Positions 1,984 to 27,720 of a DNA stretch of 34,152 bases are shown here, piece after piece. The stretch comes from Flavobacteriales bacterium (GTDB taxonomy: Bacteria; Bacteroidota; Bacteroidia; Flavobacteriales; Schleiferiaceae). The stretch is from contig JAAXJR010000029.1 of the NCBI GenBank assembly GCA_012269745.1, positions 1 through 34,152 on the forward strand, in the 5' to 3' direction. A model generated the notes under the pieces. That model saw only the letters and a list, made by a program, of their open reading frames with translations. It was not told the origin of the DNA and did not search any database. Each line of letters begins with the position of its first letter. Position 1 is the first letter of the stretch. A program made the translations under genes and the position numbers.

Positions 1984-2026
1984 CTAAATTCGTGCCTCTC
2001 CGACCTAGCACACAAAATTTTGAGAC

Positions 2027-3773: not shown

Positions 3774-4769
3774 ATGGAAACTGCTCCGGATATTGTTGCG
3801 TTGAACGAATCGATCAAAAACGAAAGTGCATTTATTGACTTGCTCCAAAATGAGCTAAGCAAGGTAATTGTTGGCCAAAAAGGCATGGTCGAGGGATTGC
3901 TTATAGGTCTTTTAGCGGATGGTCACATTTTGCTCGAAGGTGTTCCAGGTCTAGCAAAAACTTTAGCTATTAATAGCTTGAGCAAAACTATTGGCGCTTC
4001 CTTTTCACGGGTACAGTTTACACCGGATCTTCTCCCTTCAGATGTAGTAGGTACCCAGATCTACAACATGAAGGAGCACAAATTTGAAACAAAGCAGGGT
4101 CCAATATTCAGCAACTTCGTATTAGCTGATGAGATAAACCGTGCACCTGCCAAAGTCCAAAGTGCTTTACTCGAAGCTATGCAAGAGCGCCAGGTCACGC
4201 TTGGCGACATGAGTTATCCGCTGCCAAAGCCTTTCTTGGTAATGGCTACGCAAAACCCGGTAGAGCAAGAAGGAACTTACCCTTTGCCTGAAGCTCAAAT
4301 GGACCGCTTTCTTTTGAAAATCACATTGACCTACCCAGAGCGTGAGGACGAAAGAACCATTATGCGCAACCAACTAAGCGGTGGTTTGGCCTCATTAAAC
4401 ACGGTGGTAAGTACGGATCAAATCTTGAAAGCTCGTAAGGCCGTGGACAGCATATATATGGATGAGAAGATTGAATCTTACATTCTCGACATCGTCTTTG
4501 CCACAAGATTCCCTGAGAAATTCAATATCGTAGGATTGAACAATAAAATAAGTTTCGGAGCCTCCCCGCGTGGCTCTATTGCATTGGCCAAGGCCGCGAA
4601 GTGTCACGCATTTCTGCGACACCGTGGCTTTGTTATTCCTGAGGATGTTCGTGCTGTTGCACCGTCGGTATTGCGCCATAGAATTGGCCTGACCTACGAG
4701 GCAGAAGCAGAGGAAATCACTCAGGACGGCATCGTAACTGAGATTCTAAACACATTGATGGTGCCTTAA
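3774..4769 (+). CDS. moxR: MoxR-family AAA+ ATPase of the Bat operon
   Basis: 331-residue cytoplasmic AAA+ ATPase. Walker A is GVPGLAKT (56-63), Walker B is VLADEINRAP (116-125), and there is a MATQNP sensor-1 segment and a PLPEAQMDRF stretch, all typical of MoxR. MoxR proteins act as chaperone-like partners of the VWA-domain proteins encoded next to them. It is the first gene of the Bat operon, with the DUF58 gene following after 13 bases. A 75-base gap after pdeM probably holds the operon promoter, but I could not identify a clear TAnnTTTG element there. A conserved ORF start (ACATATGG) fixes the initiation codon. Confidence 0.95.
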   Translation: METAPDIVALNESIKNESAFIDLLQNELSKVIVGQKGMVEGLLIGLLADGHILLEGVPGLAKTLAINSLSKTIGASFSRVQFTPDLLPSDVVGTQIYNMKEHKFETKQGPIFSNFVLADEINRAPAKVQSALLEAMQERQVTLGDMSYPLPKPFLVMATQNPVEQEGTYPLPEAQMDRFLLKITLTYPEREDERTIMRNQLSGGLASLNTVVSTDQILKARKAVDSIYMDEKIESYILDIVFATRFPEKFNIVGLNNKISFGASPRGSIALAKAAKCHAFLRHRGFVIPEDVRAVAPSVLRHRIGLTYEAEAEEITQDGIVTEILNTLMVP

Positions 4770-4782
4770 AAAAGGACGCAAC

Positions 4783-5652
4783 GTGGACGCAACTACCTTA
4801 TTACAAAAAGTTCGACGCATCGAAATCAAGACGCGTAGACTGAGCGATCAACTCTTCTCTGGAGAGTACCAAAGTTCGTTCAAAGGACGAGGTATGAGCT
4901 TTGCCGAGGTACGTCCGTATCAAAGCGGCGACGATGTTCGCAGCATTGACTGGAACGTAACTGCCCGAAAGCGTGCACCGTACATCAAAGTTTTTGAAGA
5001 AGAACGAGAATTGACCTTATATCTGGTCATAGACATAAGCCGAAGTACTGAATTTGGAACCAGCGACCGAAGCAAGAGAGACCTTCAAACTGAGATTGCC
5101 GCAACCCTTGCGTTTAGCGCTATGGGCAATAATGATAAAATTGGGTTGATTCTTTTTGCCGGTCGGGTGGAAAAAGTCATTCCACCAAAGAAGGGCAAAA
5201 AGCACGTCATGCGCATCATTCAAACGTTGCTCGAGCATGAATCGCAAAGCGAAGGAACCAATGTAGATGGTGCCATTGAGCATTTGCTCAAAATCCAAAA
5301 ACGCCACAGCAACGTGTTTTTGATGAGCGATTTCTTGGGCGAAGTACCCTCGAAGAATTTTAAAATAGCCGCAAAGCGCTTTGACCTCTGTGCTATTCAC
5401 AGCTATGACAAGAAAGAAGTTGTCTTGCCGAAAGTAGGAATGCTCCCGCTACGAGACGCAGAAACTGGTAATGTTAGTTGGGTTAATTCTAACAGTAAAG
5501 AATTTGCTGCGCGACTCCGAGAAAGACACATGGCTAAAAAGGTGCAGTTAAATGCCTTGACTAAAAGATCTGGAGCGGGGTTAATATCCATAGAAATGAA
5601 CGAGGACTATGTTCCTCCAATGTTACAATACTTAAAATCTAAGTCGAAATGA
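4783..5652 (+). CDS. DUF58 protein with VWA-like domain, Bat operon
   Basis: 289-residue DUF58 protein, the usual direct partner of MoxR. The DUF58 signature is visible around residues 37-70 (MSFAEVRPYQSGDDVRSIDWN then ARKRAPYIKVFEEER). It is followed by a VWA-type metal site, DISRS (D84, S86, S88), and a Rossmann-like remainder. There is no signal peptide or membrane helix, so it is probably cytoplasmic. The start is GTG at 4783, preceded by AAAGGA, an unusually recognisable Shine-Dalgarno-like sequence for this group. The stop overlaps the next gene by ATGA at 5649-5652. Its exact role is not established; the gene order places it in the envelope-associated Bat complex. Confidence 0.92.
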   Translation: MDATTLLQKVRRIEIKTRRLSDQLFSGEYQSSFKGRGMSFAEVRPYQSGDDVRSIDWNVTARKRAPYIKVFEEERELTLYLVIDISRSTEFGTSDRSKRDLQTEIAATLAFSAMGNNDKIGLILFAGRVEKVIPPKKGKKHVMRIIQTLLEHESQSEGTNVDGAIEHLLKIQKRHSNVFLMSDFLGEVPSKNFKIAAKRFDLCAIHSYDKKEVVLPKVGMLPLRDAETGNVSWVNSNSKEFAARLRERHMAKKVQLNALTKRSGAGLISIEMNEDYVPPMLQYLKSKSK

Positions 5653-6557
5653 TGCGCAGATTGTTCTTCATATTGACCTTAGTTCTTTCTGTTTCCACTC
5701 ACGCTCAGGAAAAGTATCGCGCCGTAGACAATTCTGTCTTAAGTGCTTTCACAGATTCCACGAATTACTTCGTTGGCGGTACCGTAGACCTTATTATAGA
5801 GCATCGCATTGGGGTTGAAAATTTCTTCTTAGATACGGCTCATGGTCTGGCTATGCTCGGTGAGCGAGTAGATACCATAGGCGAAAGATTACGCAGAACT
5901 ACCTCCTATCTCGTGCTTGATTCAGGCAGTATTACTATGCCGATTGCGACCTTGGATTATACTGGAGATTTCTACACCACCGAATCACTAGTCATCAATG
6001 CGATAATTATCCCCCAACAGGAAGGAGTCGATCGGGCACCGAACCGAGAGCTGGTGGATATTGAATTTAACCTGTGGCATTGGCTGGATCATTTTAAATG
6101 GTACATCCTCGGTGGTTTTGGCTTCATCGCACTTTTGCTCGTTATTCGAAGAGTATTGAAAAGGCTTAAAAAAAGTACTCTGGGTGAAGAATTGGTCCCG
6201 GAAAAAGATTGGTTTGGAGATACGATGAGGGAGCTCCAAGCACTTCGCGAGAAGAAGCCTTGGGAGGTTGACGAAAAAGCTTACTATGTGAGTATTGGAA
6301 ATATATTGAGGCTTTACCTTGGTACTCAAACAGGACTCCCTATCAGTGAGCAGACTACGAATGAAAGCTTGAATTTGCTAAGAGATAAATGGACTTCAAC
6401 CCAATTGCAAAGCTTTGAGTTCATCATGACTAGGGCCGATTTTGTGAAGTTCGCCAAAGGTCAAATGACTGTCCAAGACCACTTAGATTGTTTGCGAAGA
6501 GCAGAGCAGTTAGTACTCGATTTCAAACCTAAAGAAGAAGGCGATGGAATGGAGTAA
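5649..6557 (+). CDS. Bat operon membrane protein of unknown function
   Basis: 302 residues. Residues 1-19 look like a Sec signal peptide ending ...STHA before Q20. There is a periplasmic beta-rich domain to about 145, one membrane helix at 151-168 (WYILGGFGFIALLLVI) followed by a basic stop-transfer stretch, then a cytoplasmic helical domain of about 130 residues. Proteins of this layout commonly occupy this slot between DUF58 and batA in Bacteroidota and resemble the BatD architecture, but I cannot name a characterised family. It overlaps the upstream gene by ATGA and batA by 14 bases, so it is tightly coupled to the operon. Confidence 0.85.
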   Translation: MMRRLFFILTLVLSVSTHAQEKYRAVDNSVLSAFTDSTNYFVGGTVDLIIEHRIGVENFFLDTAHGLAMLGERVDTIGERLRRTTSYLVLDSGSITMPIATLDYTGDFYTTESLVINAIIIPQQEGVDRAPNRELVDIEFNLWHWLDHFKWYILGGFGFIALLLVIRRVLKRLKKSTLGEELVPEKDWFGDTMRELQALREKKPWEVDEKAYYVSIGNILRLYLGTQTGLPISEQTTNESLNLLRDKWTSTQLQSFEFIMTRADFVKFAKGQMTVQDHLDCLRRAEQLVLDFKPKEEGDGME

Positions 6558-7545
6558 TTGGGAATTTAATCAGCCCCTTTGGCTTGCTGGGTTAGTGCTC
6601 ATACCTATGGCGGCGATTTTCATGGGTGTCATACGCTCGAAGCGATTCGGTCATTTCACCTACTCGCTTCTTGACGGCTTAGGTCAAAATTTCGCTGGAC
6701 GAGCGAAGAATTTCACGGCCCTACTCTCTTGGTTTGCCTTAGGATCCTTGTGTATTGCTTTGGCACGACCTCAAACTTCAGAGATTATTCAGCAACCCTC
6801 TCAAAATCTAGGGATAGATATGATGCTCTCCTTGGATATCAGCGCCTCGATGTTGGCGAAGGATTTAAAGCCGAACCGATTAGAAGCGCTCAAAGAAGTC
6901 GCTACAGATTTTGTTAGCCGACGTAAAGTAGACCGTATTGGTCTGGTGATCTATGCAGGCGAAGCCTACAGCCCAGTTCCACTGACCACTGACCATAGTC
7001 TATTGAACGAACAAATAAGATCCTTAGAATATGACATGCTCGATGGCGGTACCGCCATTGGCATGGGGTTAAGTACAGCTGCCAACAGATTGTCTGAAAG
7101 TAATGCCAAGAGCAAGGTGGTCATTTTACTCACTGATGGCGAAAACAATGCAGGTCTAGTTGACCCTATTCAAGCCGGAGAACTTTGCGCGAGCTTGGGG
7201 ATCAAAGTATATACGATTGGATTGGGAACCAACGGGGTAGCCTCTATGCCAGTGGCTATAGACCCGATGACACAAGAAATCATCTACCGTCCCCAGCAAG
7301 TGACCATCGATGAAGATTTATTAAAGCGTATTTCAGACATCACCGGGGGTAAGTACTTCAGAGCCACGGACAGAACCTCATTGGAGAACATCTATGACAT
7401 CATTGACGGGTTAGAAAAAAGCGAGATTGAAGGCTTCCAATTCTACCGTTACACTGAGCATTACAGCATCTTTGTTTGGATTGCGTTGGGCTTAATCGCC
7501 TTGGAGTTATTGTTGAATTTTGTGCTATTAAAATCGGCTTTCTAA
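6544..7545 (+). CDS. batA: BatA, VWA-domain membrane protein
   Basis: 333 residues. N-terminal membrane helices lie at about 11-30 and 57-75, followed by a VWA domain with an intact MIDAS metal site, DISAS (D98, S100, S102) with DGGTAIG and LLTDGENN further on. A C-terminal membrane helix lies at about 309-331. The topology places the VWA domain in the periplasm (inference from the helices). Bat proteins were named for aerotolerance in Bacteroides fragilis; the molecular function is unresolved. The start is inside the end of the preceding gene, and batB follows after one base. Confidence 0.94.
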   Translation: MEWSNWEFNQPLWLAGLVLIPMAAIFMGVIRSKRFGHFTYSLLDGLGQNFAGRAKNFTALLSWFALGSLCIALARPQTSEIIQQPSQNLGIDMMLSLDISASMLAKDLKPNRLEALKEVATDFVSRRKVDRIGLVIYAGEAYSPVPLTTDHSLLNEQIRSLEYDMLDGGTAIGMGLSTAANRLSESNAKSKVVILLTDGENNAGLVDPIQAGELCASLGIKVYTIGLGTNGVASMPVAIDPMTQEIIYRPQQVTIDEDLLKRISDITGGKYFRATDRTSLENIYDIIDGLEKSEIEGFQFYRYTEHYSIFVWIALGLIALELLLNFVLLKSAF

Positions 7546-7546
7546 G

Positions 7547-9415
7547 ATGGAATTTAAATGGCAACATCCTGAATTACTCTGGCTGGGACCTGCATTGTTT
7601 GCGCTTGTTCTTTTGGGAGCCATTCTATTCCACAGGTGGCGTAAAAAGGCATGGTCTACCCTTGGTTTAGATGCCAGTTTAGAACGCAAAAAATTTGGCG
7701 CCATTCGCTATTTCACCCGCCACACTCTGCTCGCCCTCGCTGCACTATTTCTTGGCTTGAGTTTAGCGAATCTTCAGATGGGCGGTCAAAAACAAAAGGT
7801 CAATAGAAAGGGTACTGATGTGATTTTCGCACTTGATGTCAGTCGTTCCATGTTGGCAGAAGACATTGCTCCCTCGCGTTTGGACAAGGCGAAGCTCCTT
7901 ATCTCTAGATCGCTGGAAACTTTAAGTGGAGACCGCGTGGGTATTGTGGCCTATGCCGGTAGCGCCTACCCTGCCCTTCCCATTACCACTGATTATGTAG
8001 CGGCGAAAATGGCTTTAAATGCAGCAAGTCCGGATGCCGTGCCTTCTCAAGGGACTAATCTTGCCGCTGCCTTAGAATATGCCTTTGGCTATTTCAATCC
8101 GGCTTCTCCTGCAGGGAGATTCGTTGTGGTCTTTTCCGACGGTGAAGATCATGAGACCTTGGCGGGTTTGGAGATGCCAGATTTCCCGGTAGACATCCTC
8201 ATTGTTGGTTTAGGCACGCAGAGTGGCGGACCCATTCCAATCCAAAAAAGTAGGCGAGGAACGACCTACAAAAAAGACAAGAATGGTGAGGTGGTCATCA
8301 CCAAAAGAGATGAACGTATTCTTTCTTCGTTGATGGAAGAATTGGGTGCAAATTATCTTGATGGAAATAGAACTGAGCAAGCTGTTAAGGGTATAGAGGA
8401 ATTTATTTCAAAAGGAGAAAAGGCCGACATAAGCGAGGAGATTGCCATTGATTATGACCCTCAATTCCATTGGTTCCTTTTACCAGCTTTGTTGTTCTTA
8501 TTGCTCTACCTCATTTTACCATCGAAAGTAGGCTCTCCATTCAAATACGGTCCACTCGTCTTCCTACTTTTTGCGCAAAGTGCTTATGGTCAAGCGACCG
8601 ATTCAACGATGACCCTCGAACCCGTTACAGGCTCTGCATGGGAATACGACCAGGCTGTAAATAGAGGCAAGACCTTAAAAGAGAACGGCGATCTGCAGAG
8701 CGCTTCGAAGGAGTTACTTGATGCAGTGCAGATGGACCCGGACGGTTTTGAAGGCTGGTATAATCTGGGCTCAACATTGATTGAAAGCGGCATGGCTGAG
8801 GAAGGTGAAGCCGCTTTGAAGGAGAGCGTGACGAAGGCGCAGACTGATGAACAGCTATCTGACGCCTTGTATAATCTTGGTGATGCTGCCTTTGACGGAC
8901 AACGTTTTGAAGAAGCCCTGAATTACTATAAGGAGAGTCTACTGAGAGACCCTACCAGAAAAGATGCTCAATACAACTTCAGCCGAGCGTACGAGAGGCT
9001 GCAGCAGCAAGAGCAAGAGCAGAATCAGGAAGAGCAGCAAAACGAAGATCAGGACCAACAAGAACAGCAGGAGAAAGAGGACGAAAAGGAGCCTCCAAAA
9101 TCGGACAAGGATGATCCGCAAGAAGAGAATCCAGAAGACGATAATTCTAAAGACAAACAAGACCAGCAAGACCAAAGTGGTCAAAATGGGGACGAGAATA
9201 AGGATAGCCAAGAAAACGAGAATGGCGATCCTGAAGACAACGAGAATAGCGAGAAAAATGAGCCTGAAAAAGGCGGTGAAAGCACCGCTAAGATGACCCC
9301 AGAGGAGATTAAGGGGTTATTGGAAGCTATACAGCGTGCCGAAGAAAAGACGGCCGAAAAAGTGACGGCAAAGAAGGCTAAAGGAAAGAAAAAGAGCGGT
9401 GAAAAGGATTGGTAA
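7547..9415 (+). CDS. batB-batC: BatB-BatC fusion: VWA domain joined to TPR domain
   Basis: 622 residues. The BatB part has helices at about 11-28 and 59-76, a VWA domain with MIDAS DVSRS (D97, S99, S101) and FSDGED, and a helix at 308-324. The BatC part has TPR repeats at about 365-480 (YDQAVNRGKTL, GWYNLGSTL, ALYNLGDAAF) and a long Q/E/D/N/K-rich tail at 485-600. BatB and BatC are usually separate proteins. The joint is at about 325-350: two lysines, a short hydrophobic run (335-344) and SAYGQA, which looks like BatC's old signal peptide without its start codon. No stop codon or frameshift separates the parts. The coding start of batD lies 17 bases inside the 3' end. Processing into two proteins is possible but unproven. 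Confidence 0.92.
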   Translation: MEFKWQHPELLWLGPALFALVLLGAILFHRWRKKAWSTLGLDASLERKKFGAIRYFTRHTLLALAALFLGLSLANLQMGGQKQKVNRKGTDVIFALDVSRSMLAEDIAPSRLDKAKLLISRSLETLSGDRVGIVAYAGSAYPALPITTDYVAAKMALNAASPDAVPSQGTNLAAALEYAFGYFNPASPAGRFVVVFSDGEDHETLAGLEMPDFPVDILIVGLGTQSGGPIPIQKSRRGTTYKKDKNGEVVITKRDERILSSLMEELGANYLDGNRTEQAVKGIEEFISKGEKADISEEIAIDYDPQFHWFLLPALLFLLLYLILPSKVGSPFKYGPLVFLLFAQSAYGQATDSTMTLEPVTGSAWEYDQAVNRGKTLKENGDLQSASKELLDAVQMDPDGFEGWYNLGSTLIESGMAEEGEAALKESVTKAQTDEQLSDALYNLGDAAFDGQRFEEALNYYKESLLRDPTRKDAQYNFSRAYERLQQQEQEQNQEEQQNEDQDQQEQQEKEDEKEPPKSDKDDPQEENPEDDNSKDKQDQQDQSGQNGDENKDSQENENGDPEDNENSEKNEPEKGGESTAKMTPEEIKGLLEAIQRAEEKTAEKVTAKKAKGKKKSGEKDW

Positions 9416-11075
9416 AATTTTAATAGTCTTTGCCCTGTTGCTGAGTTCTAGCGCTTTTGGGCAAAACATTGAGCTTACAGCGAGTTGTTCGCGAACCTCT
9501 GTGGACCTCAACGAACCCTTCAGGGTGACCTTTGCCACTAATTCGCGAAAGGGAGATATTCAGCCGCCGAACTTCAAGAAATTCATTGTGGTCAATGGCC
9601 CGTTTCAATCGAGCCAAACACAGATCATCAACGGACGCGTAAGCTCGCAGCGCTCCTTGACTTACGAGATAGTTGCGCAGCAAGAGGGTGAGTTCACTTT
9701 GCCTTCTGCTAGCATTTTAGTAGATGGGAAGCTCATTGAAAGCAATAGATTGAAGATTTCAGTAAAAGCAGGAACGAAGCGTAAAAACACCTTGTCTCAA
9801 AAGGCTAAAGAGAGTTTCAACGTGAGCATTCTTGCGTCGAAAAAATCAGTGTATGTGGGTGAGCCGGTGATCCTGAAATTTAGAGCTACTCTTCTGGATC
9901 CGGTACGCGACCTGAGCATACTTCAAGCGCCCAATTTTGAGAATGTCCTTCAGAAACAATTGGAATTTAAGCAGCAGAGCCAGCGAGAAGTTATTGGTAA
10001 CAAGGTGGCTACGGTATTAGATTTTGATAAACGACTCATACTACCAAACAAACCGGGAACCTTGGGTGGCCAAGAGCTCAAGATTAGCGGTCAGGTTCAG
10101 GTGCCTACAGGTCGAAGAGACTTCTTCAATATGCCTTTGACCAAATTTGTACCCGAGGTGGCGACGGCTAAAATTCCTGCGGTGAAGATCAAACCACTCC
10201 CAAGTGGTGCGCCAAATTCTTTTGAGGGCGGTGTGGGCGAATTGAAATTGGTCCGTGAGATAAGCCGTAAAGAGGTGAGTGGAGAGGAAAGCATCACCAT
10301 CAAATTACGCATTGAAGGTGCGGGGAATTTCAACACGTTGGAGGTGCCAGAATTGGACAAGCCTGAAGGGTTTGATGTCTATGATCCTAAATACAACGAG
10401 GACATTAGTTACAGCGAGCGCGGCATTCGAGGGTATAAGGAGTACGAGTATTTATTAGTACCGCAATACCGTGGAGAATTTATCCTACCACAAATGAGCT
10501 GGAGCTATTTTAATACAGCATCTGAAAAGTACGAGACTATTAACGTTGCCGCGGATACCTTGGTGGTGAACAACCCAGCATTGGCTGGTGTACAACAAAG
10601 CAGCCTACCGGGCACAGTGAAGCGCGAAGTAAGCACGATTGAGGACGATATTCGCTACCTCCAAGAGGGCCAATTTGAACCTTACCAAGAGATCAGACTC
10701 AAGCGCTGGTCTCTGGTTCTTCTGGGAATTTTAGGAGTGTTTTGGTTGTGGCAATTGGCGCCGAATAGAGAGAAAGTTTCGAGTGGTGTAAATTGGAAAA
10801 AGTCGCAACTGAAATCGGTGCAAAAAGCCTTTATGGTCAATGATGATCAGCGTTATGGTGTCATGCTCAATGCCCTAGAATTTGCCTTGGTTAAAAAGGG
10901 ACTCAACCTAGAATCTGTAAGTCAAGCTGCGCTTGAGAAGCCTTTTGGCGGAGAAATAGCAAAACAAATTATTGCTTTGATTGAACAGTGCAACATGGCG
11001 CAATATGCACCTTTAGCGGTAAGCGATGAAAGTAATAACCTGAAAACTTTTGTAGAGGTATGGGAACAGATTTAA
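9399..11075 (+). CDS. batD: BatD, BatD/BatD-like oxygen-tolerance family membrane protein
   Basis: 558 residues. The start is GTG at 9399 inside the end of the batBC gene; it gives a good signal peptide, MKRIGKILIV through SSAFG, with Q22 as mature N terminus. Several beta-sandwich repeats follow up to about 400, consistent with a periplasmic domain. One membrane helix lies near 435-455 (WSLVLLGILGVFWLW), then a cytoplasmic helical tail of about 100 residues. This is the architecture of BatD. Its C-terminal coding region overlaps the start of batE by 16 bases. It probably forms a complex with BatA, BatB/C and BatE (operon inference). Confidence 0.93.
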   Translation: MKRIGKILIVFALLLSSSAFGQNIELTASCSRTSVDLNEPFRVTFATNSRKGDIQPPNFKKFIVVNGPFQSSQTQIINGRVSSQRSLTYEIVAQQEGEFTLPSASILVDGKLIESNRLKISVKAGTKRKNTLSQKAKESFNVSILASKKSVYVGEPVILKFRATLLDPVRDLSILQAPNFENVLQKQLEFKQQSQREVIGNKVATVLDFDKRLILPNKPGTLGGQELKISGQVQVPTGRRDFFNMPLTKFVPEVATAKIPAVKIKPLPSGAPNSFEGGVGELKLVREISRKEVSGEESITIKLRIEGAGNFNTLEVPELDKPEGFDVYDPKYNEDISYSERGIRGYKEYEYLLVPQYRGEFILPQMSWSYFNTASEKYETINVAADTLVVNNPALAGVQQSSLPGTVKREVSTIEDDIRYLQEGQFEPYQEIRLKRWSLVLLGILGVFWLWQLAPNREKVSSGVNWKKSQLKSVQKAFMVNDDQRYGVMLNALEFALVKKGLNLESVSQAALEKPFGGEIAKQIIALIEQCNMAQYAPLAVSDESNNLKTFVEVWEQI

Positions 11076-11758
11076 ACGCTATTGCGGATAGTGCTAGGTC
11101 GCTCTACGATCAAGGATTGTATCGCGAGGCGCTCGAGAACTATGAACAGCTGTTTACTTCTCAAGTCAAGAACGATGAGCTTTTCTACAACATGGGCAAC
11201 TGTTATGCACGCCTGGGGGAGCTCGGCGAAGCTAAGTTGTTTTACGAACGTGCGCTTATTTACAACCCTTCTAATGCCGATGCAAGCCACAATTTGGATT
11301 GGGTGAACCTAAGAATCACTGATGCATTAGTTGAACCCCGTCAAGAATTGATTGAGTGGGTAGGACAATGGGGACGATCTATCACTGATGCCGATACTTG
11401 GGCGCTTGTAGGCTGGGGGATAATTGGCGTTAGTATACTGCTATTGATTGCACGCAAAACTTTTGCGAAATCTCTGAACTGGCGTTGGCCTTTCACTACG
11501 AGCATCCTTGCGCTACTGATTATTCTAGTAGGTAACCTCAGTGTTCCTCGAATGAAAAAAGCCATTGTGGTCGAAAGGAATTCTTATGGATATAGCGAGC
11601 CCTCAACCAACAGCAAAAGAATAGTGCTGTTAAGTGAGGGCAGCGCGGGTACTATCGTTAGTACAAATGATTCATGGTACTACGTCGAATTAGGCGATGG
11701 GCGTTTGGCTTGGTTTAATACTAAAGAATGGAAATACGTTCTTCCAGGTTTAGATTAA
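11060..11758 (+). CDS. batE: BatE, TPR plus SH3-like membrane protein lacking a signal peptide
   Basis: 232 residues. TPR repeats occupy about 8-80 (SARSLYDQGLYREALENYEQ, LFYNMGNCYARLGELGEAKL). Two membrane helices lie at about 113-131 and 146-162, separated by a basic loop (RKTFAKSLNWRW). A C-terminal SH3-like domain lies at about 170-230. Family members usually begin with a signal peptide; here an in-frame TGA at 11042 excludes an upstream extension and the protein starts directly before the TPR. The positive loop suggests that both ends face the periplasm, which conflicts with the missing signal. The start is inside batD. The stop TAA shares two bases with the stop of the convergent gene. 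Confidence 0.9.
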   Translation: MGTDLNAIADSARSLYDQGLYREALENYEQLFTSQVKNDELFYNMGNCYARLGELGEAKLFYERALIYNPSNADASHNLDWVNLRITDALVEPRQELIEWVGQWGRSITDADTWALVGWGIIGVSILLLIARKTFAKSLNWRWPFTTSILALLIILVGNLSVPRMKKAIVVERNSYGYSEPSTNSKRIVLLSEGSAGTIVSTNDSWYYVELGDGRLAWFNTKEWKYVLPGLD

Positions 11759-12153
11759 ACTAGCTTAGGTAACCACGTTTTAACAGAAGACTTGATTCCC
11801 ATAGCTTCTTTGTAGCTGTTTGGGAATGCACGAACTACATTTTTAGCTTCGTTCCATCTCGGATGTGTTTTATCCCCTGATGCATACACCGCAAAAAGGT
11901 ACTTTGCATTTCGAATAGCTTGCTCCATCTGATCTTCATTCAACGTATCAAATCCAGGGAGCGAAGACATCGTGCCTTCTTCAAAAGAAGCTTGCAGCGT
12001 TTTCTGTTGATCAATAGGTGATTTCCAGATTGGGAAAAAGAACGGGTAGCCGTAGATAAGGTTGTTTACAATCTTGTCTTCCATAAGAGTAGCATTTATT
12101 GGTTGGTTCTCTAAAAGTACAACTAAGTATAAATTACCACTTAGATTACTCAT
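11755..12153 (-). CDS. Hypothetical protein, 132 aa
   Basis: Not recognised. The ATG at 12153 (MSNLSGN) is preferred over a TTG at 12174; a later ATG at 12084 (MEDKIVN) would also give a plausible 109-residue protein. There is no signal peptide or convincing membrane helix. The sequence has normal amphipathic composition, with an aromatic stretch GYPFFFPIWKSP in the middle and a C-terminal half rich in helical residues (DQMEQAIRNAKYLFAVYASGD). It is convergent with batE and separated from thiL by 84 bases of AT-rich sequence. Coding status is inferred from its length and protein-like composition in an otherwise empty slot. Confidence 0.65.
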   Translation of the reverse strand: MSNLSGNLYLVVLLENQPINATLMEDKIVNNLIYGYPFFFPIWKSPIDQQKTLQASFEEGTMSSLPGFDTLNEDQMEQAIRNAKYLFAVYASGDKTHPRWNEAKNVVRAFPNSYKEAMGIKSSVKTWLPKLV

Positions 12154-19325: not shown

Positions 19326-20765
19326 ATGAAAATTGGAATTGACGCCATTTCATACTACGTACCTAGCCACTACCTCCCCATCGAAGCACTTGCGAATGCA
19401 AGAAACATTGAATACGCCAAGCTGAACAAGGGCTTGGGTCTCACTTCTATGTCCTTCCCGGATGTCGACGAAGATGCTGCCTCAATGGGAGCGAATGCAG
19501 TTCTCGACATGTTCCAAAGAGAATCTCTAGATCCAGCCACAGTGGGCAGAATGTACCTCGGTACAGAAAGTGCTTTAGATAGTGCTAAACCTACTGCGAC
19601 GTACATTCTAGATTTAGTAGAGAAAGAATTAGCTGCCGAGCACGGTGAGCGTTGCTTGAAAAACGTAGATGCCGTAGATATGACCTTCGCGTGTATCGGT
19701 GCAGTAGATGCGTTGGAGAATGCATGCCTTTATGTGCAGCAAAACCCAGATAAGAAAGCCATTATTATCGCGGCAGATTTGGCCAAATATGACCTAGGCT
19801 CAACAGGAGAATACACCCAAGGTGCCGGTGCTGTGGCATTACTCGTGAGTGTAGATCCAGCCATTGTCGCATTGGATGCCGAGATCGGCGTAGCCACCAA
19901 AGGTGAGCGTGATTTCTTCAAACCGCGCAGAACACACACCAAAGCTTCTGTTCTCGTTCAAGCAGCCTCATTGTTAGGGGTTGAATTGAGTGAAGAGGAG
20001 GCAGCGGCAAAGCTTCTAGGGGCCGAAGGTTTCTGGGGCGGAAACAGCATGATCCGCAGCTATGTTGAAGAGCCAGTTTTTGACGGTCAATACAGCAACG
20101 GCGCTTATGTAGGCCGTATCCAAGAGGCACTCGCTCATTTTGAAAGCAAAGTGGATCTAAATCCTGCATTGGATTGGGACCGTGTAGTCATGCACTTACC
20201 TTATGCCTTCCAAGGGCGCCGTATGTTGGTGAATTTCTACCTGAATTGGATGAACGCTAACGGAAAATGGGAAGAAGTAGTTGCTGCTATGGGCGGCGAC
20301 AAACCAGCAGATAAAGACGAGGCGAAAGCTTGGGTAAAAGCATTTAGCAAGAGCGATTACTACCGCGCTTATGTAGCTAAAGCCTTGGCCCCTGCCGAAC
20401 GTGCGTCGAGCCTCATCGGTAATATGTACACCGCTTCCATCTTCATGGGATTGCTCAGTACGCTGTGTGATGCTGCCGATAAAGGCGAAGCCATCGAAGG
20501 TGCGTGTATCGGTTTTATGGGCTACGGTTCAGGAAGCAAGGCGAAGGTCTTCCAAGGTCACGTGCAACCGGGGTGGTCGAAAGTTGCAGGATTAGACCTG
20601 TTCGGCAGTCTAGAGAACCGTACGGCCGTGGATTTCACTACGTATGAGAACTGGCACAATGAGCGTTTAACTAGCCCAATTCTTCCTTCGAAATCCGGCT
20701 TCGTTTTTGACGGTCTCAGAACAGCAGAAAACCAAGAATTTTTCCGAGATTACAAGAAACAGTAA
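19326..20765 (+). CDS. mvaS: Hydroxymethylglutaryl-CoA synthase
   Basis: 479 residues, thiolase-fold family. It condenses acetoacetyl-CoA with acetyl-CoA to HMG-CoA, an early step of the mevalonate route to isoprenoids. The triad can be placed at E81 (LGTESALDSAKP), C123 (DMTFACIGAVDAL) and H290 (VVMHLPYAFQGRRM); the NMYTASIFMG and MGYGSGS segments also fit. It is longer than many bacterial MvaS proteins (near 390), and the active-site flanks are divergent, as in Bacteroidota homologues. No other mevalonate gene lies nearby. The substrate is inferred from the family; a related condensing activity is less likely. Confidence 0.88.
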   Translation: MKIGIDAISYYVPSHYLPIEALANARNIEYAKLNKGLGLTSMSFPDVDEDAASMGANAVLDMFQRESLDPATVGRMYLGTESALDSAKPTATYILDLVEKELAAEHGERCLKNVDAVDMTFACIGAVDALENACLYVQQNPDKKAIIIAADLAKYDLGSTGEYTQGAGAVALLVSVDPAIVALDAEIGVATKGERDFFKPRRTHTKASVLVQAASLLGVELSEEEAAAKLLGAEGFWGGNSMIRSYVEEPVFDGQYSNGAYVGRIQEALAHFESKVDLNPALDWDRVVMHLPYAFQGRRMLVNFYLNWMNANGKWEEVVAAMGGDKPADKDEAKAWVKAFSKSDYYRAYVAKALAPAERASSLIGNMYTASIFMGLLSTLCDAADKGEAIEGACIGFMGYGSGSKAKVFQGHVQPGWSKVAGLDLFGSLENRTAVDFTTYENWHNERLTSPILPSKSGFVFDGLRTAENQEFFRDYKKQ

Positions 20766-21275: not shown

Positions 21276-21944
21276 CTAGAGCGTTATCGACAGCCCGATG
21301 TTCTGGCTCGTCGCAGCCCCTAATTCTGGCACCAATACACCAGATTCAACAATTGGATTTAAGCCGTAGTAGTAATACAAGTTGAACGGTCCTCGGCCTG
21401 CCTTGAAATAGGCACCGTATCGAAGGGTACTGAACCCGCCAATATTGTAAAACTTCACGCGGTAGTTCTCCGTTTCTAAATAGGAATAGGAATCGGTTAA
21501 ATATCCAATAAGACCACCCACGTAAATCCTGGTATATCGCCCGTTTTTATTAGCGTTTGACCTGTACCTCAACTCAAGAATACCATCTACATATTCAGTT
21601 GCTAATCGATTCGAAATATAAGACTGACCATCTAGATTCTCCAGGATCTGCTGCCCATTAGAAGCAACATCAACGTGTAAGTTTCCATGGTAAAAATGAC
21701 CGCTGTATCCTACTCCATATGCCAAGCCGAAATGAGACAATCCTATGGTGTTTTCTCGAAGCAACTGAAACTCTTGAGAGTTCGCCTTCCATGAAGAAGT
21801 AAAAGATCCCGGAGCGCCAACGACCATCAACGAAGAAGTATTGAAGGAAAGGCCCTCTCCCGGCTCAGGAATAAATGCTTTGGCCTGCCCAAAAGCACCT
21901 AGGCTAAATACAAATGCAACAAGTATAACGGCTGCTTTTTTCAT
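21276..21944 (-). CDS. Predicted outer-membrane beta-barrel protein (PorT-like)
   Basis: 222 residues. The signal peptide is MKKAAVILVAFVFSLGAFG, cleaved before Q20. The rest shows alternating hydrophobic and polar strands rich in Tyr and Gly (GLAYGVGYSGHFYHG, RYTRIYVGGLIGYLTDSYSYL, LRYGAYFKAGRGPFNLYYYYGLNP), and it ends in a hydrophobic strand, NIGLSITL, as expected of an outer-membrane barrel. It resembles the PorT/OmpW-like group, but I cannot assign a precise family. A TATTTTTG element lies 45 bases upstream of the start. Confidence 0.75.
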   Translation of the reverse strand: MKKAAVILVAFVFSLGAFGQAKAFIPEPGEGLSFNTSSLMVVGAPGSFTSSWKANSQEFQLLRENTIGLSHFGLAYGVGYSGHFYHGNLHVDVASNGQQILENLDGQSYISNRLATEYVDGILELRYRSNANKNGRYTRIYVGGLIGYLTDSYSYLETENYRVKFYNIGGFSTLRYGAYFKAGRGPFNLYYYYGLNPIVESGVLVPELGAATSQNIGLSITL

Positions 21945-21989
21945 AGTCTCAAGGTAGTAAATGAACCCACGAAAGGGCCGCTAAGTCTT

Positions 21990-21997
21990 CAAAAATA
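21990..21997 (-). promoter_or_regulatory. Possible -7 promoter element of the beta-barrel gene
   Basis: TATTTTTG on the minus strand matches TAnnTTTG and lies 45 bases upstream of the ATG at 21944. No convincing -33 TTG is at the expected distance, so support is weak. Confidence 0.3.
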
Positions 21998-22081
21998 CAA
22001 ACCTTTGAAGGGATACGTACTTTCTAGTGAAGAAGAGCCCTAGTAACGATTTCAATACCCTGTTATTCATACTTTCATAAG

Positions 22082-23251
22082 ATGGATATATATGCTTTCA
22101 AAACCCACTGGAATCAAAAAAGCTTCGCTTTTATCGCTATGATTGCAGTTAATGCTGTTTTTCTTGGCAGCTATTTATTGGAAGTTAGTGATGGATTTTA
22201 CTACCTGCTGGGTCAAATCTTCCTCCTTCCTTTTACAGGGTTAATTTTAAATCGCAAAGCCCCAAGGCTAGAAGCATTCGTAGATATAAAACTCTTGTCT
22301 TTTTATTTTTGGTACTATTATTTTGCGATAAATGTTACTGGTTTTTATTTAACCGCAATATTTTTTTCAACCATTCTGCTGCGAATTGGCGTTCACTCCG
22401 CTTCACTAAGAGGCGAAACTATATTCTTGAGGTGTAGTCTATACTTTGGTCCAGTGATTGCTTTCTTCCTTATTGCATTTGACATTCAGCCTTGGTTCGA
22501 ATGGCCTTTGCCAGCAGAAAAAGAGTTGAAATTCTCATCGTCCGTAGTCTTTGTTCTCATGTTACTTTTCTCATTTCGAACAAGTGAGGGCTATATAACA
22601 ACTATCAATCAACTAGAGGATAAAGAGAACGAACTAAGCGTCCGTTATACCCAAGTTCTTGAGCTAAATCAAATCTTAAATCATAATATTAGGACACCTT
22701 TGGCCACTGCCATTGGACAACTAGAAATTGCCAAGCTAAAAAATAAAGACAACGTCCATATCGAAAAATCACGTCAGGCACTAGAAGTGGTACTTGAGCA
22801 AACACAAAGTGTGAATAATGCTAAAAAAGCGTTTGCAAGGTCTTCGAATATCACTGAGTTTTTCGAGAATTGGAAAACCATCTATAATTATCCAATGGTC
22901 GAATTAATCGTTGGTAAGGAAGTAGATTCGCTTATTATAAATGAGCAGTCCATGATTGCCATAGCTGTATCACTAGATATATTCACAATCAACTCATTTG
23001 AGGCAGAAGCAACAAATATTCAAATACATGTTTCAAGAAATGAGAATCAGATTTTAATAAGGCATGTAGATAATGGCCTTGGAGTTTCTAACGAAATACT
23101 GGAGATGTTTGGGAAACCCATAAACAGTCAAAAGGGGTCCGGGCTGGGAACCTATCTCGCTCAACGACTTCTAAGAAGCGCCGGGGCAATAAACGTTCAG
23201 TTCGCAAATCGAACAGGACACCAAGGTTTCGAAGTGTCTATCCTACTTTAG
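22082..23251 (+). CDS. Membrane histidine kinase, orphan (paralogue 1)
   Basis: 389 residues. The N-terminal membrane domain has about five or six helices (about 15-33, 41-57, 71-100, 118-134, 152-166). A linker helix leads to a HisKA-type dimerisation domain with the phosphoacceptor H201 in LNHNIRTPL. The ATPase domain has the N box N304 (DIFTINSFEAEA), G1 box VDNGLG (D330) and G2 box GSGLGTYLA (352-360). The residue after the His is Asn rather than Glu, a variant frequent in Bacteroidota. No response regulator is encoded nearby. The gene is visibly more A/T-rich than its neighbours. It is paralogous to the kinase at 24537-25721. Its stop TAG overlaps the convergent stop. Confidence 0.88.
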   Translation: MDIYAFKTHWNQKSFAFIAMIAVNAVFLGSYLLEVSDGFYYLLGQIFLLPFTGLILNRKAPRLEAFVDIKLLSFYFWYYYFAINVTGFYLTAIFFSTILLRIGVHSASLRGETIFLRCSLYFGPVIAFFLIAFDIQPWFEWPLPAEKELKFSSSVVFVLMLLFSFRTSEGYITTINQLEDKENELSVRYTQVLELNQILNHNIRTPLATAIGQLEIAKLKNKDNVHIEKSRQALEVVLEQTQSVNNAKKAFARSSNITEFFENWKTIYNYPMVELIVGKEVDSLIINEQSMIAIAVSLDIFTINSFEAEATNIQIHVSRNENQILIRHVDNGLGVSNEILEMFGKPINSQKGSGLGTYLAQRLLRSAGAINVQFANRTGHQGFEVSILL

Positions 23252-23532
23252 TCTTTAAAGTCTTCCCCTGTCTCAAAGTTGTCATCGCTGTCACTAGCGT
23301 CCTCAAACTCGTCCAGATCAAAAGCTTCGAACTGCTTCTCTAAAGAGGCGCTCAGTTTAATGAGGTATTTGGTGTCCTCTGTTTCTAAGGGGACACACTC
23401 CACACGCTCACCTTTGGCATTGGTAAAGAATTCGGTTTCACCATCAAAACCATCGGGGTACTCTTTTACGAGTAAAGCCATTAACGCTTCATCGACTGAC
23501 TTCACGTCTTTGATCACAAATCGCTTTGCCAT
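23248..23532 (-). CDS. Small acidic protein, 94 aa, unknown function
   Basis: 94 residues. The N-terminal half is compact (MAKRFVIKDVKSVDEALMAL, then KEYPDGFDGETEFFTNAKGE). The C-terminal third is strongly acidic (FDLDEFEDASDSDDNFETGEDF). There are no membrane segments. Similar small proteins occur in Bacteroidota next to polyamine genes in my recollection, sometimes annotated as DNA primase without basis; I do not adopt that name. Here it lies directly downstream, in the same direction, of the wrecked polyamine locus, so it may be the surviving last gene of that operon. Its stop shares two bases with the kinase stop. Confidence 0.72.
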   Translation of the reverse strand: MAKRFVIKDVKSVDEALMALLVKEYPDGFDGETEFFTNAKGERVECVPLETEDTKYLIKLSASLEKQFEAFDLDEFEDASDSDDNFETGEDFKD

Positions 23533-23634
23533 TTGCTAATATGTATTTGATATAAACTAGTAATGCTGAGAGGCTAAAACACACATTATTAAGCTAATAT
23601 CACGACGAGCGTTGTTCTCGCCGTACGCGGCTAA

Positions 23635-23730
23635 TTACTTATCTAATATCCAAGAAAAAATCAAAGGAGCGACAATTGTAGCATCACTTTCAACAATAAA
23701 TTTTGGTTTATCAGCATCCAATTTTCCCCA
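23635..23730 (-). pseudogene. 3' remnant of a deoxyhypusine-synthase-like gene
   Basis: About 31 codons, WGKLDADKPKFIVESDA then TIVAPLIFSWILDK and TAA. This matches, from memory, the extreme C terminus of the Bacteroidota deoxyhypusine-synthase-like family (typically ...TWGKLD..TPKFI.ESDATIVAPL.FAW.LDK). It is joined in frame to the arginine decarboxylase remnant at the tryptophan codon near 23728-23736, where both parents would have a Thr-Trp-like junction. The catalytic domain is completely absent. Confidence 0.8.
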
Positions 23731-24489
23731 AGTATCTGGAAGGGTGGTCACAAAAGAACTGTCAATCATGTACCAAGTTTCGCGATCATTTTGTTTCTTT
23801 TGGCCGAGGATCCTGTAGAAATTGGCCCCAGATTCTCCTACGGTGTACGAACCAAATTCACTAAAAATATGTGGCTCCGGCACATCTGCGTAATCACACA
23901 TCATTTTGATTTGATTGATGATCTCCTCGGCCATGTATTCGTAGTCGAAGTCCATGCCCAGACTAGTCTTGATGGGGAATCCACCACCGATATTTAGACC
24001 ATCCAAAGAAGGGCAGATGCGCTTTAGGTCAATGTATACATTTGCGCAGCTCGTTCCAGTAATAAGCAGCGTCCTTTATGACTGTATTGATGAAGAAATG
24101 GAGCATTTTTAATTCTGACCTCTCATTCTCCTGGATCTTCGATCTATAGAAGTCTACTATATCGCGGTAACCAATTCCCAGACGCGAAGTATAAAACTCA
24201 AATTTCGACTCTTCCTCAGAAGCAATTCTAATGCCTAGTTTGACTTTCTTTTGAGTTCTGGATTGCAATTCAGCCAATTCCTCTACGTGATCAATAACCG
24301 TTATGGTATTGTTATAACCTTGTTCGTAGAGCCTGGCAATGTTATCCAAATAGCGATCTGTTTTATAGCCATTGAAACAACGTGACGGTCCTTTGGCAAT
24401 TTACCTGAAGCTGCCATGTTACGGATAATGTTGATGTCAAAGACACTAGAGGTCTCTAGGTGCACTTCATTTTCAAGCACTTTAAACAC
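23731..24489 (-). pseudogene. speA: Arginine decarboxylase (speA) remnant, truncated and frameshifted
   Basis: Three frames together spell a middle section of biosynthetic arginine decarboxylase: VHLETSSVFDINIIRN and GKLPKDRHVV (frame 1); NIARLYEQGYNNTITVIDHV, GIRIASEEESKFEFYTSRLG and ELKMLHFFINT (frame 2); LNIGGGFPIKTSLG, FSEFGSYTVGESG and NDRETWYMIDSSFVTTLPDTW (frame 3). The first break, near 24374-24378, fits loss of one base. The second, near 24035-24042, creates TGA at 24031-24029. Everything N-terminal of VLENEVHLE, including the PLP lysine, is missing, and stops precede it. The C-terminal domain is replaced by another gene's tail. The enzyme would convert arginine to agmatine; this copy cannot. 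The good conservation of the segments suggests recent loss. Confidence 0.9.
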
Positions 24490-24536
24490 GCTTTAACTTA
24501 TATATATATTCTTTAAGTATTGATGTCATCTCAATT

Positions 24537-25721
24537 GTGAATAAGCAAAATCTTTATAAGATTGTATTAATGCAAACACGTCACAAAACGTCTTATTGGG
24601 ATATTGCCACAATCACATTGATACCGGCTATCTTATTTCTTGTTGGCTTCTCAAAATCCTCGGTCTTACTTCAGATAGCTTCTTCTTTCGTGCTAGTGAT
24701 CCTCTCAGAAATTGCAGTAAGCAGATTTCATAAAATCGCTGGATCTGTTGTTGATCTTGTTGGAGTTAGTATTGTTGGGGTTATATATCATTATACATTA
24801 GTCAGTTCACCAATTTTGACCATGTCCTTCTTACTGGTCTTAATCACTAGGCTCTTCATTCATCTATTCGATAATGAACTTGATAAGAAACACATCATCG
24901 GATTTACAATCATTGTTTTCTTTTGTATTTCACAACTTTTTGAGCGCTTTTTTATTTTTTCTTGGCTAAAGCCGTCTACATTATTGACTACGACTGAGGA
25001 AATTATATGGATATGCTGTACTTATGGGGTAGTCTTCTCACAGATCTTCAATACGGCAAATACGATGCAGACTGAAAGACGAACGATCAACATGAAAAAT
25101 GTTTCGCTAAGTGTACGTTACCATCAAATTATTGAGATGTATCAAGTACTCAATCATAATTTGAAGACACCCCTTGCCAATGCGCTAGGTAAAGTGGAGA
25201 TCGCACTTTTAACCAAGGATGTTTCACGTCTTCAGGAAACTAAAGAATCCATGCTCTCGGCGTTGGAGAAATTGAATACTCTTACCATAGTCAAGAAGAT
25301 TGTCGCACAAACTAATCGCTTGGATGAGTTCCTCAAGGAATGGCAGATTACGTTCAACCACCAAGACATCGCCATTAATGCTAATTCTGAGAAAGCACAA
25401 AGCTTTCAAATCATTGAAGAATCTGGGATCGCACTGGCCATCGCCCTTGACATCTTTGCACATAATTCAAAGGAGGCTGGTGCTGATGCAATTGAGATTG
25501 GTCTCGAGATTAAACATTCAAGAATAATGGTCTGTTTCCGAGACAATGGTCCAGGATTGGATGAAAAACGACTGGAACTCTTCGGCCAGATACAACAAAG
25601 CACCAAAGGAAGTAGTGGCTTGGGAACCTATCTAGCTGTACGACTTTTAAAGGCTGCCAACATCGAATTGAATTACTTCAATAGACCTTCGGGAGGTTTT
25701 GAAGTGCAATTGGCGCTTTAA
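24537..25721 (+). CDS. Membrane histidine kinase, orphan (paralogue 2)
   Basis: 394 residues from a GTG start at 24537; an ATG at 24570 (codon 12) is a possible alternative. It has about five or six membrane helices (about 22-37, 43-60, 73-88, 92-110, 118-143, 155-170). The phosphoacceptor is H207 in LNHNLKTPL, the N box N310 (DIFAHNSKEAGA), the G1 box RDNGPG (D336) and the G2 box GSSGLGTYLA (358-367). It aligns with paralogue 1 throughout the kinase core and C terminus (EVQLAL versus EVSILL), while the membrane parts differ. No response regulator is nearby. It begins 47 bases from the truncated end of the speA remnant and ends with a TTAA shared with the convergent stop. Confidence 0.88.
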   Translation: MNKQNLYKIVLMQTRHKTSYWDIATITLIPAILFLVGFSKSSVLLQIASSFVLVILSEIAVSRFHKIAGSVVDLVGVSIVGVIYHYTLVSSPILTMSFLLVLITRLFIHLFDNELDKKHIIGFTIIVFFCISQLFERFFIFSWLKPSTLLTTTEEIIWICCTYGVVFSQIFNTANTMQTERRTINMKNVSLSVRYHQIIEMYQVLNHNLKTPLANALGKVEIALLTKDVSRLQETKESMLSALEKLNTLTIVKKIVAQTNRLDEFLKEWQITFNHQDIAINANSEKAQSFQIIEESGIALAIALDIFAHNSKEAGADAIEIGLEIKHSRIMVCFRDNGPGLDEKRLELFGQIQQSTKGSSGLGTYLAVRLLKAANIELNYFNRPSGGFEVQLAL

Positions 25722-26491
25722 GTAATCTGCAAAGCGATGGTCTCGAAGCCCTCAATCTCCAAACGGATTTCGTCATCTTGTTGTACTGGAACCATAGGAC
25801 CTAAAGCGCCTGAAAGTAGGATTTCCCCTTTCGTTAACGGCTCGCCCTGATCGGCCATCTTTTGAGCCAACCACAAACCAGCATTTAGTGGATTGTCCAT
25901 ACAAGCCATACCGGTTCCTTCGCTACAAAGTTCGCCGTTTTTAAACAGACGCATCGTGGCCTTGGAAGGATCCATTTCTTTCAAGGTTTTGTAATCTTTT
26001 CCTATGATGAAGTGAGAACCTGAGGCGTTGTCTGCGATGGTATCCGAGATTCGTATGTTCCATCCTTCCACACGAGAATCTACAATTTCAATGGATGCAC
26101 GAATCTCGGAAATACTCTCCATCAAGAGGTCCATCGTAATGTCCTTTGTGGTGATGTCCTTGCCCAATACAAAAGTGAGCTCGCCTTCGACTTTAGGCAA
26201 TATGGCTTTTGAGGTGTTAAAAATACCTGAAGAACTTACGTCCATGGTATCGAACAAGATGCCGTAATCGGGCTGATCTACGCCTAACTGCTCTTGTACT
26301 GCGAACGAAGTGAGTCCTATTTTCTTGCCGACCACCTTTTCACCGCGGGCTTTACGTAGGGCTACCAGTTCTTTTTGGATGTCGTAAGCCGCATCAATGT
26401 CGTTGTTGATTTGATCGCGAAGGGGCGCGATACTTTGGCCAGAGTTTAGGCTGTCGAACAATTGTTTTCCTAGGTCTTTGTGCAATGACAT
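25718..26491 (-). CDS. 2-keto-4-pentenoate hydratase family protein (MhpD-like)
   Basis: 257 residues of the fumarylacetoacetase-fold hydratase/decarboxylase family (MhpD, HpaH, DmpE/DmpH). Family marks are GKKIGLTSFAVQEQLGVDQPDYG (about 55-77), the metal-binding PKVEGELTFVLGKD region with its Glu pair, ASIEIVDSRVEGW, and NPLNAGLWLAQKM. The family hydrates 2-hydroxypenta-2,4-dienoates or decarboxylates oxalocrotonate in meta-cleavage pathways. Here no meta-cleavage dioxygenase is present, and the gene is divergent from the homogentisate operon, so the substrate is uncertain. It may act on a related 2-keto acid. Its stop shares two bases with the kinase stop. Confidence 0.85.
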   Translation of the reverse strand: MSLHKDLGKQLFDSLNSGQSIAPLRDQINNDIDAAYDIQKELVALRKARGEKVVGKKIGLTSFAVQEQLGVDQPDYGILFDTMDVSSSGIFNTSKAILPKVEGELTFVLGKDITTKDITMDLLMESISEIRASIEIVDSRVEGWNIRISDTIADNASGSHFIIGKDYKTLKEMDPSKATMRLFKNGELCSEGTGMACMDNPLNAGLWLAQKMADQGEPLTKGEILLSGALGPMVPVQQDDEIRLEIEGFETIALQIT

Positions 26492-26562: not shown

Positions 26563-27720
26563 ATGCCGTTTTATCAAAAGCAAGGACAGTTTCCGCACAA
26601 GCGCCATACCCAGTTTCGTAAAGGAGACGGCAGCCTGTACCACGAAGAACTTTTTGGAACAATAGGCTTTGACGGCATGTCGTCATTGCTCTACCATAAT
26701 CATCCGCCAACAATGGTGAAAGAAATCGGTGAGAGTAAGAATGTCGCGCCGAAAATAGCCGTTGAGAAAAACATGAAGGCCTACCGTCTGAAAGGCTTTG
26801 ATGTGCCGCCTACAGAAGATTATTTAGAGAGCCGTGTACCGGTATTAACCAATAAAGATTGTACCATCACCTTGGCCGCACCTTCAGGGTCGATGACTGA
26901 TTATTTCTATAAAAATGCGCAGAACGACGAGGTTGTTTTTGTGCATGAAGGCAGTGGTACATTAAAGACGCAGTTTGGTGATTTGACCTTTGGTGAGGGT
27001 GATTATCTGGTCATTCCTCGCGGGATGATACAGCAATTTCATTTTGATACGGCAAAGAATCGTCTCTTTATAGTGGAGAGCGGTCACCCAGTATATACAC
27101 CGAAGAGGTACCGCAACTGGTTCGGGCAATTGCTCGAGCACAGTCCTTATTGTGAGCGCGATTTGCGTGCGCCAGTTTTGGGGCCAGCGAGTGACGAGAT
27201 GGGTGATTTTACCATCAAAGTGAAAAAAGAAGATATGTTGCATTCGTACACCTACGCTGCCCACCCGTTTGGCGTGGTAGGTTGGGACGGATTCAATTAC
27301 CCTTATGCCTTTAGCATTCACGATTTTGAACCCATTACCGGTCGTGTCCACCAACCGCCTCCGGTGCACCAGACTTTTGAAACAGGAGCATTTGTGATCT
27401 GTTCGTTTGTGCCGCGTCTGTATGACTATCATCCAGAATCGATTCCAGCTCCTTATAACCACAGCAATATAGATTCAGACGAAGTCCTCTATTATGTGGA
27501 TGGTGATTTTATGTCGCGAAATAACATAGGTCGTGGGCAAATTACCCTGCACCCTGCTGGCGTTCCTCACGGCCCTCACCCTGGAACTTACGAGGGAAGT
27601 ATTGGGAAGAAAGAAACACTGGAATTGGCGGTGATGGTCGATACTTTTGCCCCACTTAAAATAACTGAACAAGCCCTGGCTCTTGATGCTGGTGATTACC
27701 ACAAGAGTTGGATCAAATAA
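26563..27720 (+). CDS. hmgA: Homogentisate 1,2-dioxygenase
   Basis: 385 residues. This iron(II) enzyme opens the ring of homogentisate to maleylacetoacetate in tyrosine catabolism. Iron ligands expected from the family can be placed at H300 and E307 in NHSNIDSDEVLYY and H336 in GVPHGPHPG. Other family segments are GFDGMSSLLYHNHPPT, DEVVFVHEGSG, GDYLVIPRGM, and WDGFNYPYAFSIHDFEP. It is shorter than the animal enzyme (about 445 residues), as in other Bacteroidota. It is the first gene of the operon hmgA-hppD-fahA, with a ten-base gap before hppD. Confidence 0.96.
   Translation: MPFYQKQGQFPHKRHTQFRKGDGSLYHEELFGTIGFDGMSSLLYHNHPPTMVKEIGESKNVAPKIAVEKNMKAYRLKGFDVPPTEDYLESRVPVLTNKDCTITLAAPSGSMTDYFYKNAQNDEVVFVHEGSGTLKTQFGDLTFGEGDYLVIPRGMIQQFHFDTAKNRLFIVESGHPVYTPKRYRNWFGQLLEHSPYCERDLRAPVLGPASDEMGDFTIKVKKEDMLHSYTYAAHPFGVVGWDGFNYPYAFSIHDFEPITGRVHQPPPVHQTFETGAFVICSFVPRLYDYHPESIPAPYNHSNIDSDEVLYYVDGDFMSRNNIGRGQITLHPAGVPHGPHPGTYEGSIGKKETLELAVMVDTFAPLKITEQALALDAGDYHKSWIK

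Follow-up and report, generated by a model that had tools for sequence, protein, structure and literature searches.

Agmatine is the product of the arginine decarboxylase SpeA. The described enzymes that stand closest to the second gene considered here belong to the deoxyhypusine synthase (DHS) family: the SpeY proteins, DHS homologues that, as presented in PMC9992855, act as homospermidine synthases, and the Thermus enzyme CdmS, which is described as coupling two agmatine molecules and in which both of the aspartates that correspond to Asp243 and Asp316 of human DHS are replaced, by Phe and Leu (PMC10981699). For two type strains of Flavobacterium, sym-homospermidine is given as the major polyamine (PMC8570120). 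In searches of open-licence PMC papers, we found no report of the loss of a speA-dhs operon in Bacteroidota, where dhs denotes the gene for a deoxyhypusine-synthase-like (DHS-like) protein.

The locus described here lies in a window of 34,152 nucleotides, the whole stretch of DNA that was analysed (contig JAAXJR010000029.1 of assembly GCA_012269745.1), and its source genome (G000) comprises 2.27 Mb in 87 contigs, with a listed completeness of 100 and a listed contamination of 2.33. We hold with good confidence that this window carries the remnant of a dead two-gene operon at its ancestral locus, decayed by deletions and situated on a segment most likely imported from an unsampled congener. The operon would have consisted of speA, whose product would have converted arginine to agmatine, and of an overlapping DHS-like gene probably leading to homospermidine. 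As an event, this is an ordinary pseudogene produced by a deletion inside an operon; it is its setting that is informative.

On the minus strand, from 24486 down to 23635, a SpeA-type arginine decarboxylase can be read in three frames, followed in frame by the 31 last residues of a DHS-like protein. The SpeA protein of an intact congener locus (L034 of genome G016; 467 residues) aligned by tblastn with this strand in three collinear pieces. Its residues 243-349 match positions 23728-24051 with 84% identity, and residues 132-245 match positions 24032-24373 with 77% identity (E = 9e-104 for this linked pair). The third piece, located by tblastn and alignment at 24373-24486 and corresponding to SpeA residues ~95-131, scored 45% identity (E = 1e-12) over a tblastn span of residues 85-148 that overruns a frameshift, the true homology starting at about residue 96. 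The final 31 codons and the stop of the DHS-like gene occupy 23635-23730, as found by protein search, and the tail is 69% identical to the congener DHS-like protein over 51 amino acids (E = 4e-18).

Aligning the remnant with seven intact speA genes of congeners fixed the sites of four lesions. The N terminus is gone, with no speA homology upstream of ~24486 in this alignment, so that about 95 codons are missing; one base is deleted at 24374-24375 and eight bases at 24038-24039, each shifting the frame; and a deletion with its junction at 23727-23736 joins speA to dhs. Tblastn, the congener loci and the alignment place the switch from one gene to the other at the Trp codon 23728-23730, at which the codon for Trp349 of SpeA is joined to that for Trp294 of the DHS-like protein. 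In the scenario that we infer, for which the order of the lesions is likewise presumed, one deletion would have fused these two codons, the frame would have been broken by the 1- and 8-base deletions, and roughly the first 95 codons would have been lost beside a kinase-like gene. A sequence-only reading of this DNA had already described SpeA in three frames running into a DHS-like tail, with two frameshifts and no N terminus; the tblastn search and the congener alignment bear this out and place its coordinates within about 2 bases of ours.

The same reading had attributed the chimera to a deletion inside an operon at a shared Thr-Trp-like junction, and the aligned Trp codons support it. In intact operons, the two Trp codons are separated by 1231 bp, or by 1240 bp in L009 and L035 (12 congener loci from 10 genomes, two of them duplicated). 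At the junction site the intact loci have AGY TGG in speA and ACN TGG in dhs, and the remnant has ACT TGG; the homology available for the joining could thus have been up to seven bases if the broken speA had ACT, or as few as one if it had AGY. The suggestion that a gene between speA and dhs might have been removed as well was wrong: the two genes overlap by 8 bases in all 12 congener loci from the 10 genomes, which rules out an intervening gene for the genus. In a wider set, 27 of 61 same-strand speA-dhs pairs are at most 50 bp apart, and some are separated by 0.8-1.7 kb.

The remnant is dead as an enzyme, since it lacks the N-terminal region that holds the YCTK lysine, the last 118 residues of SpeA and nearly all of the DHS-like protein. 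The YCTK lysine, which we take to be the PLP-binding residue of SpeA, is residue 85 of the L034 protein and falls in the missing part. By descent the remnant is a speA gene, with the identities given above and the same neighbours as the intact congener speA, but it covers only about residues 95-349 of 467, split over three frames, and 31 of the 324 DHS-like residues, so that a complete PF01916 domain is absent. A search of the genome for intact speA and dhs genes, proposed along with the earlier reading, recovered no intact copy. No DHS was found elsewhere in G000 by PF01916 family search, which detected the congener DHS-like protein at 140.8 bits as a control, and the protein search returned just the remnant tail; family and protein searches did not find a second SpeA either. 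Compensation through another PF02784 protein was considered and rejected: one of the two others in G000 is LysA, at 388 bits against a cut-off of 297.9, and the second, at 163 bits, is LysA-like. PF02784 matches of similar size are also present in other genomes of the genus.

A SpeA protein that natively ends in the DHS-like tail, the case named earlier as speaking against a chimera, was sought among relatives and not found. Among 108 SpeA loci taken from the best 80 of 589 relatives (some loci duplicated, at least three being counted twice), 104 give alignments longer than 400 of the 467 residues, and these SpeA proteins therefore extend beyond the junction; the four exceptions (L019, L047, L053 and L091) are partial or split. 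The TLPDxW motif occurs in 98 of the loci and is followed by a DHS-like tail in none of them, with the window as positive control, and the ten loci without the motif (L092 included) are all among the 104 long alignments. On these loci, a native SpeA-DHS fusion is rejected. One might still ask if the fused frame of 123 codons, which runs uninterrupted between a TTG at 24006 and the stop at 23635 and sits in a remnant whose conserved SpeA sites are mostly unchanged, is expressed as a small protein that serves a separate function. We regard this as extremely improbable: the fusion was seen neither in the other 24 congeners nor in the 98 SpeA loci tested, the frame combines parts of two different folds, and conserved sites would also be kept in a young remnant.

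The remnant sits at the ancestral locus of the operon. In the intact congener locus L034 the gene order is FAA-speA-dhs-(94-aa gene)-ORF222, and L035 (of genome G020) is alike without the 94-aa gene. In the window, the upstream neighbour of speA in congeners, a gene of the FAA-hydrolase family (PF01557), is found at 25718-26491 (minus strand), and the downstream neighbour ORF222 at 21276-21944 (minus strand). The 94-aa gene at 23248-23532 (minus strand), which has no Pfam or NCBIfam match, is 71% identical over 73 aa to the gene that follows dhs in L034. This gene is absent from the six operon-less loci considered below, but also from the neighbourhood of the intact L035 operon. The window also has two histidine-kinase-like genes on the plus strand here: one at 24537-25721 separates the FAA gene from the remnant, at a place where L034 and L035 have no such gene, and adjoins the site of the missing first ~95 codons; the second, at 22082-23251, lies between the 94-aa gene and ORF222. 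The best matches of both outside G000 are at the same locus in genomes G011 and G012, those of the first gene being 37-41% identical. Their family has 12 matches in G000 versus 0-4 in each other congener, and further G000 contigs with members are C35, C54, C10, C42, C61, C8, C39, C27 and C66. We recognised no mobile element within 21900-26000, where the repeats listed are a direct repeat of 30 nt, located within the two kinase genes, and an inverted repeat of 19 nt. Farther to the right, the genes that we take from their sequences to be HGO (26563-27720) and HPPD (from 27721) are adjacent in the window; between their counterparts, a gene for 415-416 aa is present in L034 (1851-3098) and L035 (1765-3015).

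Within the genus (25 genomes), ten genomes have intact speA and dhs, G000 has the remnant, G012 has the end of a DHS-like gene at a contig edge, and 13 have neither gene. Since the listed completeness of these 13 is mostly 58-92% (99% for G017), absence by itself is weak evidence. At six readable loci (G017, G019, G004, G013, G001 and G024), however, the FAA gene abuts ORF222, and the operon and the 94-aa gene are gone; in G011, and on contig C134 of G012, the operon is likewise missing from the locus and kinase-like genes are in its place. In a tree of HMGCS, the name that we give from its sequence to the gene at 19326-20765, the operon-less genomes fall into a group of G000, G017, G003 and G011, a pair of G013 and G001, and G024, the last two within a group of operon bearers. 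This suggests at least three losses of the operon in the genus, a count drawn from a one-gene tree in which the two relevant nodes have support values of 65 and 67 only. Genome G012 was considered as a second bearer of a remnant and rejected, as its DHS match (residues 284-322) is cut off by the contig end. The contig in question, C58 (L166; 3383 bases), carries this DHS end together with a gene distantly homologous to the 94-aa gene (29% identity), and the FAA-ORF222 locus of the same genome is on the separate contig C134 (L156), without the operon; C58 may hold a copy that has moved, or it may be of foreign origin. Outside the genus, P0001 had matches in 11 of the 12 genomes that represent other genera of the family and in 7 of 23 elsewhere in the order. 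The earlier view of the absence as unusual is supported neither for the genus, in which 13 of 24 congeners have neither gene, nor for the order.

The remnant looks young. It has changed 2 of the 56 covered sites that are invariant across 104 SpeA sequences and 6 of 98 sites conserved to at least 95%, two of these at the frameshift joints; at the latter class of sites the ten congeners show 0-2 changes, and the 104 controls 1.26 on average with a maximum of 22. Measured against eight outgroup sequences over 255 codons, the excess dN of the remnant over its congeners is 0.008, which does not differ from zero given a bootstrap range of -0.025 to 0.041, and the control genome G020 gave -0.011 (-0.037 to 0.018). 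There is thus no measurable excess of amino-acid changes. As the upper bound of about 0.04 for neutral change since the death of speA compares with a pairwise dS of 0.25 between G000 and G017 at HMGCS, speA would have died after these two lineages split, provided that their rates are similar. G017 and G019, the nearest relatives with readable loci, already carry the clean deletion.

The segment with the remnant has a history unlike that of the DNA to its left. There, the window is 91-97% identical to the relative G021 over 12.5-21.5 kb; across ~21,450, where an exact match of 53 bases ends, identity drops from 98 to 70%; to the right of the break it is 62-82% as far as ORF222 can be aligned. 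At HMGCS and at DUF2480 (the latter, like FAA, named by family search), G000 and G017 share 94.8% identity, whereas at the FAA gene G000 has only 73.5% nucleotide identity to G017 and likewise to G004. AU tests of a topology in which G000 groups with the G017 group reject it for ORF222 (p = 0.0034), FAA (p = 0.0035) and HGO (p = 0.0126), but not for HMGCS (p = 0.584), DUF2480 (p = 0.598) or HPPD (p = 0.251). The opposite constraint, which places G000 outside the group formed by G017, G004 and G003 kin, is rejected for none of the six genes (p = 0.276 for HMGCS and 0.078 for DUF2480). Because neither topology is rejected to the left of the break, the contrast in history rests there on identity; ORF222, with the break inside it, yields a mixed tree; and HPPD (27.7-28.9 kb) fits both topologies, which bears on the right edge of the segment. 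Conflicting gene trees and a sharp breakpoint, here at ~21,459, are what homologous recombination is expected to leave. The segment was therefore probably imported in this way, from an unsampled congener and into the G000 lineage, a direction that we presume; it would reach from ~21,459 across the FAA gene and take in at least the gene that follows (26563-27720). No donor is found among the 24 congeners, and the contigs of G021 and G007, which are among the closest relatives, end short of the locus.

Both the ancestral position and the youth of the remnant would also be expected under plain vertical decay, in which the old operon persisted in the G000 line until its recent death, the sister lines deleted theirs separately and the segment is simply an old haplotype. 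We consider this improbable. The similarity of G017 and G004 at FAA (83.7%) is within the range of other genes (78.1-85.5%), so that it is G000, distant from both at this gene but so close to G017 at HMGCS and DUF2480, that is the odd one out at the segment. That the contig joins two congeners by misassembly at ~21,459, the remnant belonging to the other one, seems quite improbable to us as well. The listed contamination and the sharpness of the break, right at the end of the 53-base match, would agree with such a chimera, but ORF222 is open across the break, the gene order on both sides is that of the genus, and several identity levels rather than two are encountered (62-86% over 1.5-12 kb, 91-97%, 72-76% and 79-94%), although no one of these points is decisive. 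In the interval 1500-12000, identity to G021 (L169) dips to these lowest values between stretches of more than 90%, and the contig thus looks mosaic elsewhere too. With import by recombination as the preferred explanation, the earlier statement that the strain had recently lost the route stands as regards recency, which the dN and conserved-site data uphold; as an account of a loss by the strain itself it is too simple and probably incomplete, because the segment that carries the remnant appears to be imported.

The lost pathway was probably the homospermidine route. The best NCBIfam model for the congener DHS-like protein is a homospermidine biosynthesis protein (114.5 bits, cut-off 450), and the intact DHS-like proteins of congeners fall below every NCBIfam cut-off. 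The catalytic lysine is kept in all 60 alignments that span the site (63 loci, some duplicated). In the DHS-like proteins encoded beside speA (e.g., L034:6629-7600), the residue corresponding to Asp243 of human DHS is Asn in 59/59 and that corresponding to Asp316 is Tyr in 60/60; judged from sequence, these replacements suggest a changed substrate, perhaps agmatine as in the Thermus enzyme. A high-scoring ureohydrolase (E < 1e-36) is present in 7 of 10 operon bearers versus 1 of 15 other genomes (G010), counts that are not independent observations, and the ureohydrolase of G009 reaches 164 bits against an agmatinase model with a cut-off of 174.3. The overlap of speA with dhs and an unlinked agmatinase-like gene are compatible with a SpeY-like or a CdmS-like route alike.

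As to other sources of polyamines, PF01276 has no match in G000 and weak matches, none above cut-off, in 13 of the 25 genomes of the genus; PF01564 has none in any of the 25; and PF13416, which should cover PotD, has none in G000 and is matched in four of the 25 (G005, G010, G013 and G022). Across G000 and the genomes close to it (G017, G021, G019, G007, G003 and G004), we found neither SpeA, the DHS-like enzyme and a high-scoring agmatinase nor spermidine synthase, OKR-type decarboxylases above cut-off and PotD-type binding proteins. It is a tentative idea, and one we think rather unlikely, that this is a free-living lineage without a recognised polyamine supply, that the genus lost the operon several times, and that G000 regained a copy through recombination, which then died in its turn.

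Polyamines are commonly described as near-universal. A genus that keeps a probable homospermidine route in some species and has cleanly deleted it in relatives, the genes being speA, the dhs-like gene and, at another place, one resembling agmatinase, offers a natural experiment on the need for this route in free-living bacteria, and the remnant shows one such loss part-way. It also teaches that a pseudogene in a genome may not mark a loss in that genome's own descent.

Compared with functional Bacteroidota-type SpeA, a PLP-dependent arginine decarboxylase (PF02784, related to NF003763 and TIGR01273), the remnant pieces are 75-84% identical to the congener protein and lie at the same locus, but ~95 N-terminal and 118 C-terminal residues are absent and the frame is broken twice. 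With bacterial pseudogenes that arise by operon-internal deletion, the remnant shares the deletion of one gene into the next and the additional small indels; it differs from them in its in-frame fusion at an aligned Trp codon and in its position on a segment with a history other than that of its left flank. With SpeY and the caldomycin synthase CdmS of Thermus, finally, it has in common that its tail derives from a protein of the DHS family whose catalytic lysine is kept in congeners; in contrast to these enzymes, the window retains just 31 residues, and the congeners carry Asn and Tyr in place of Asp243 and Asp316 of the human protein.
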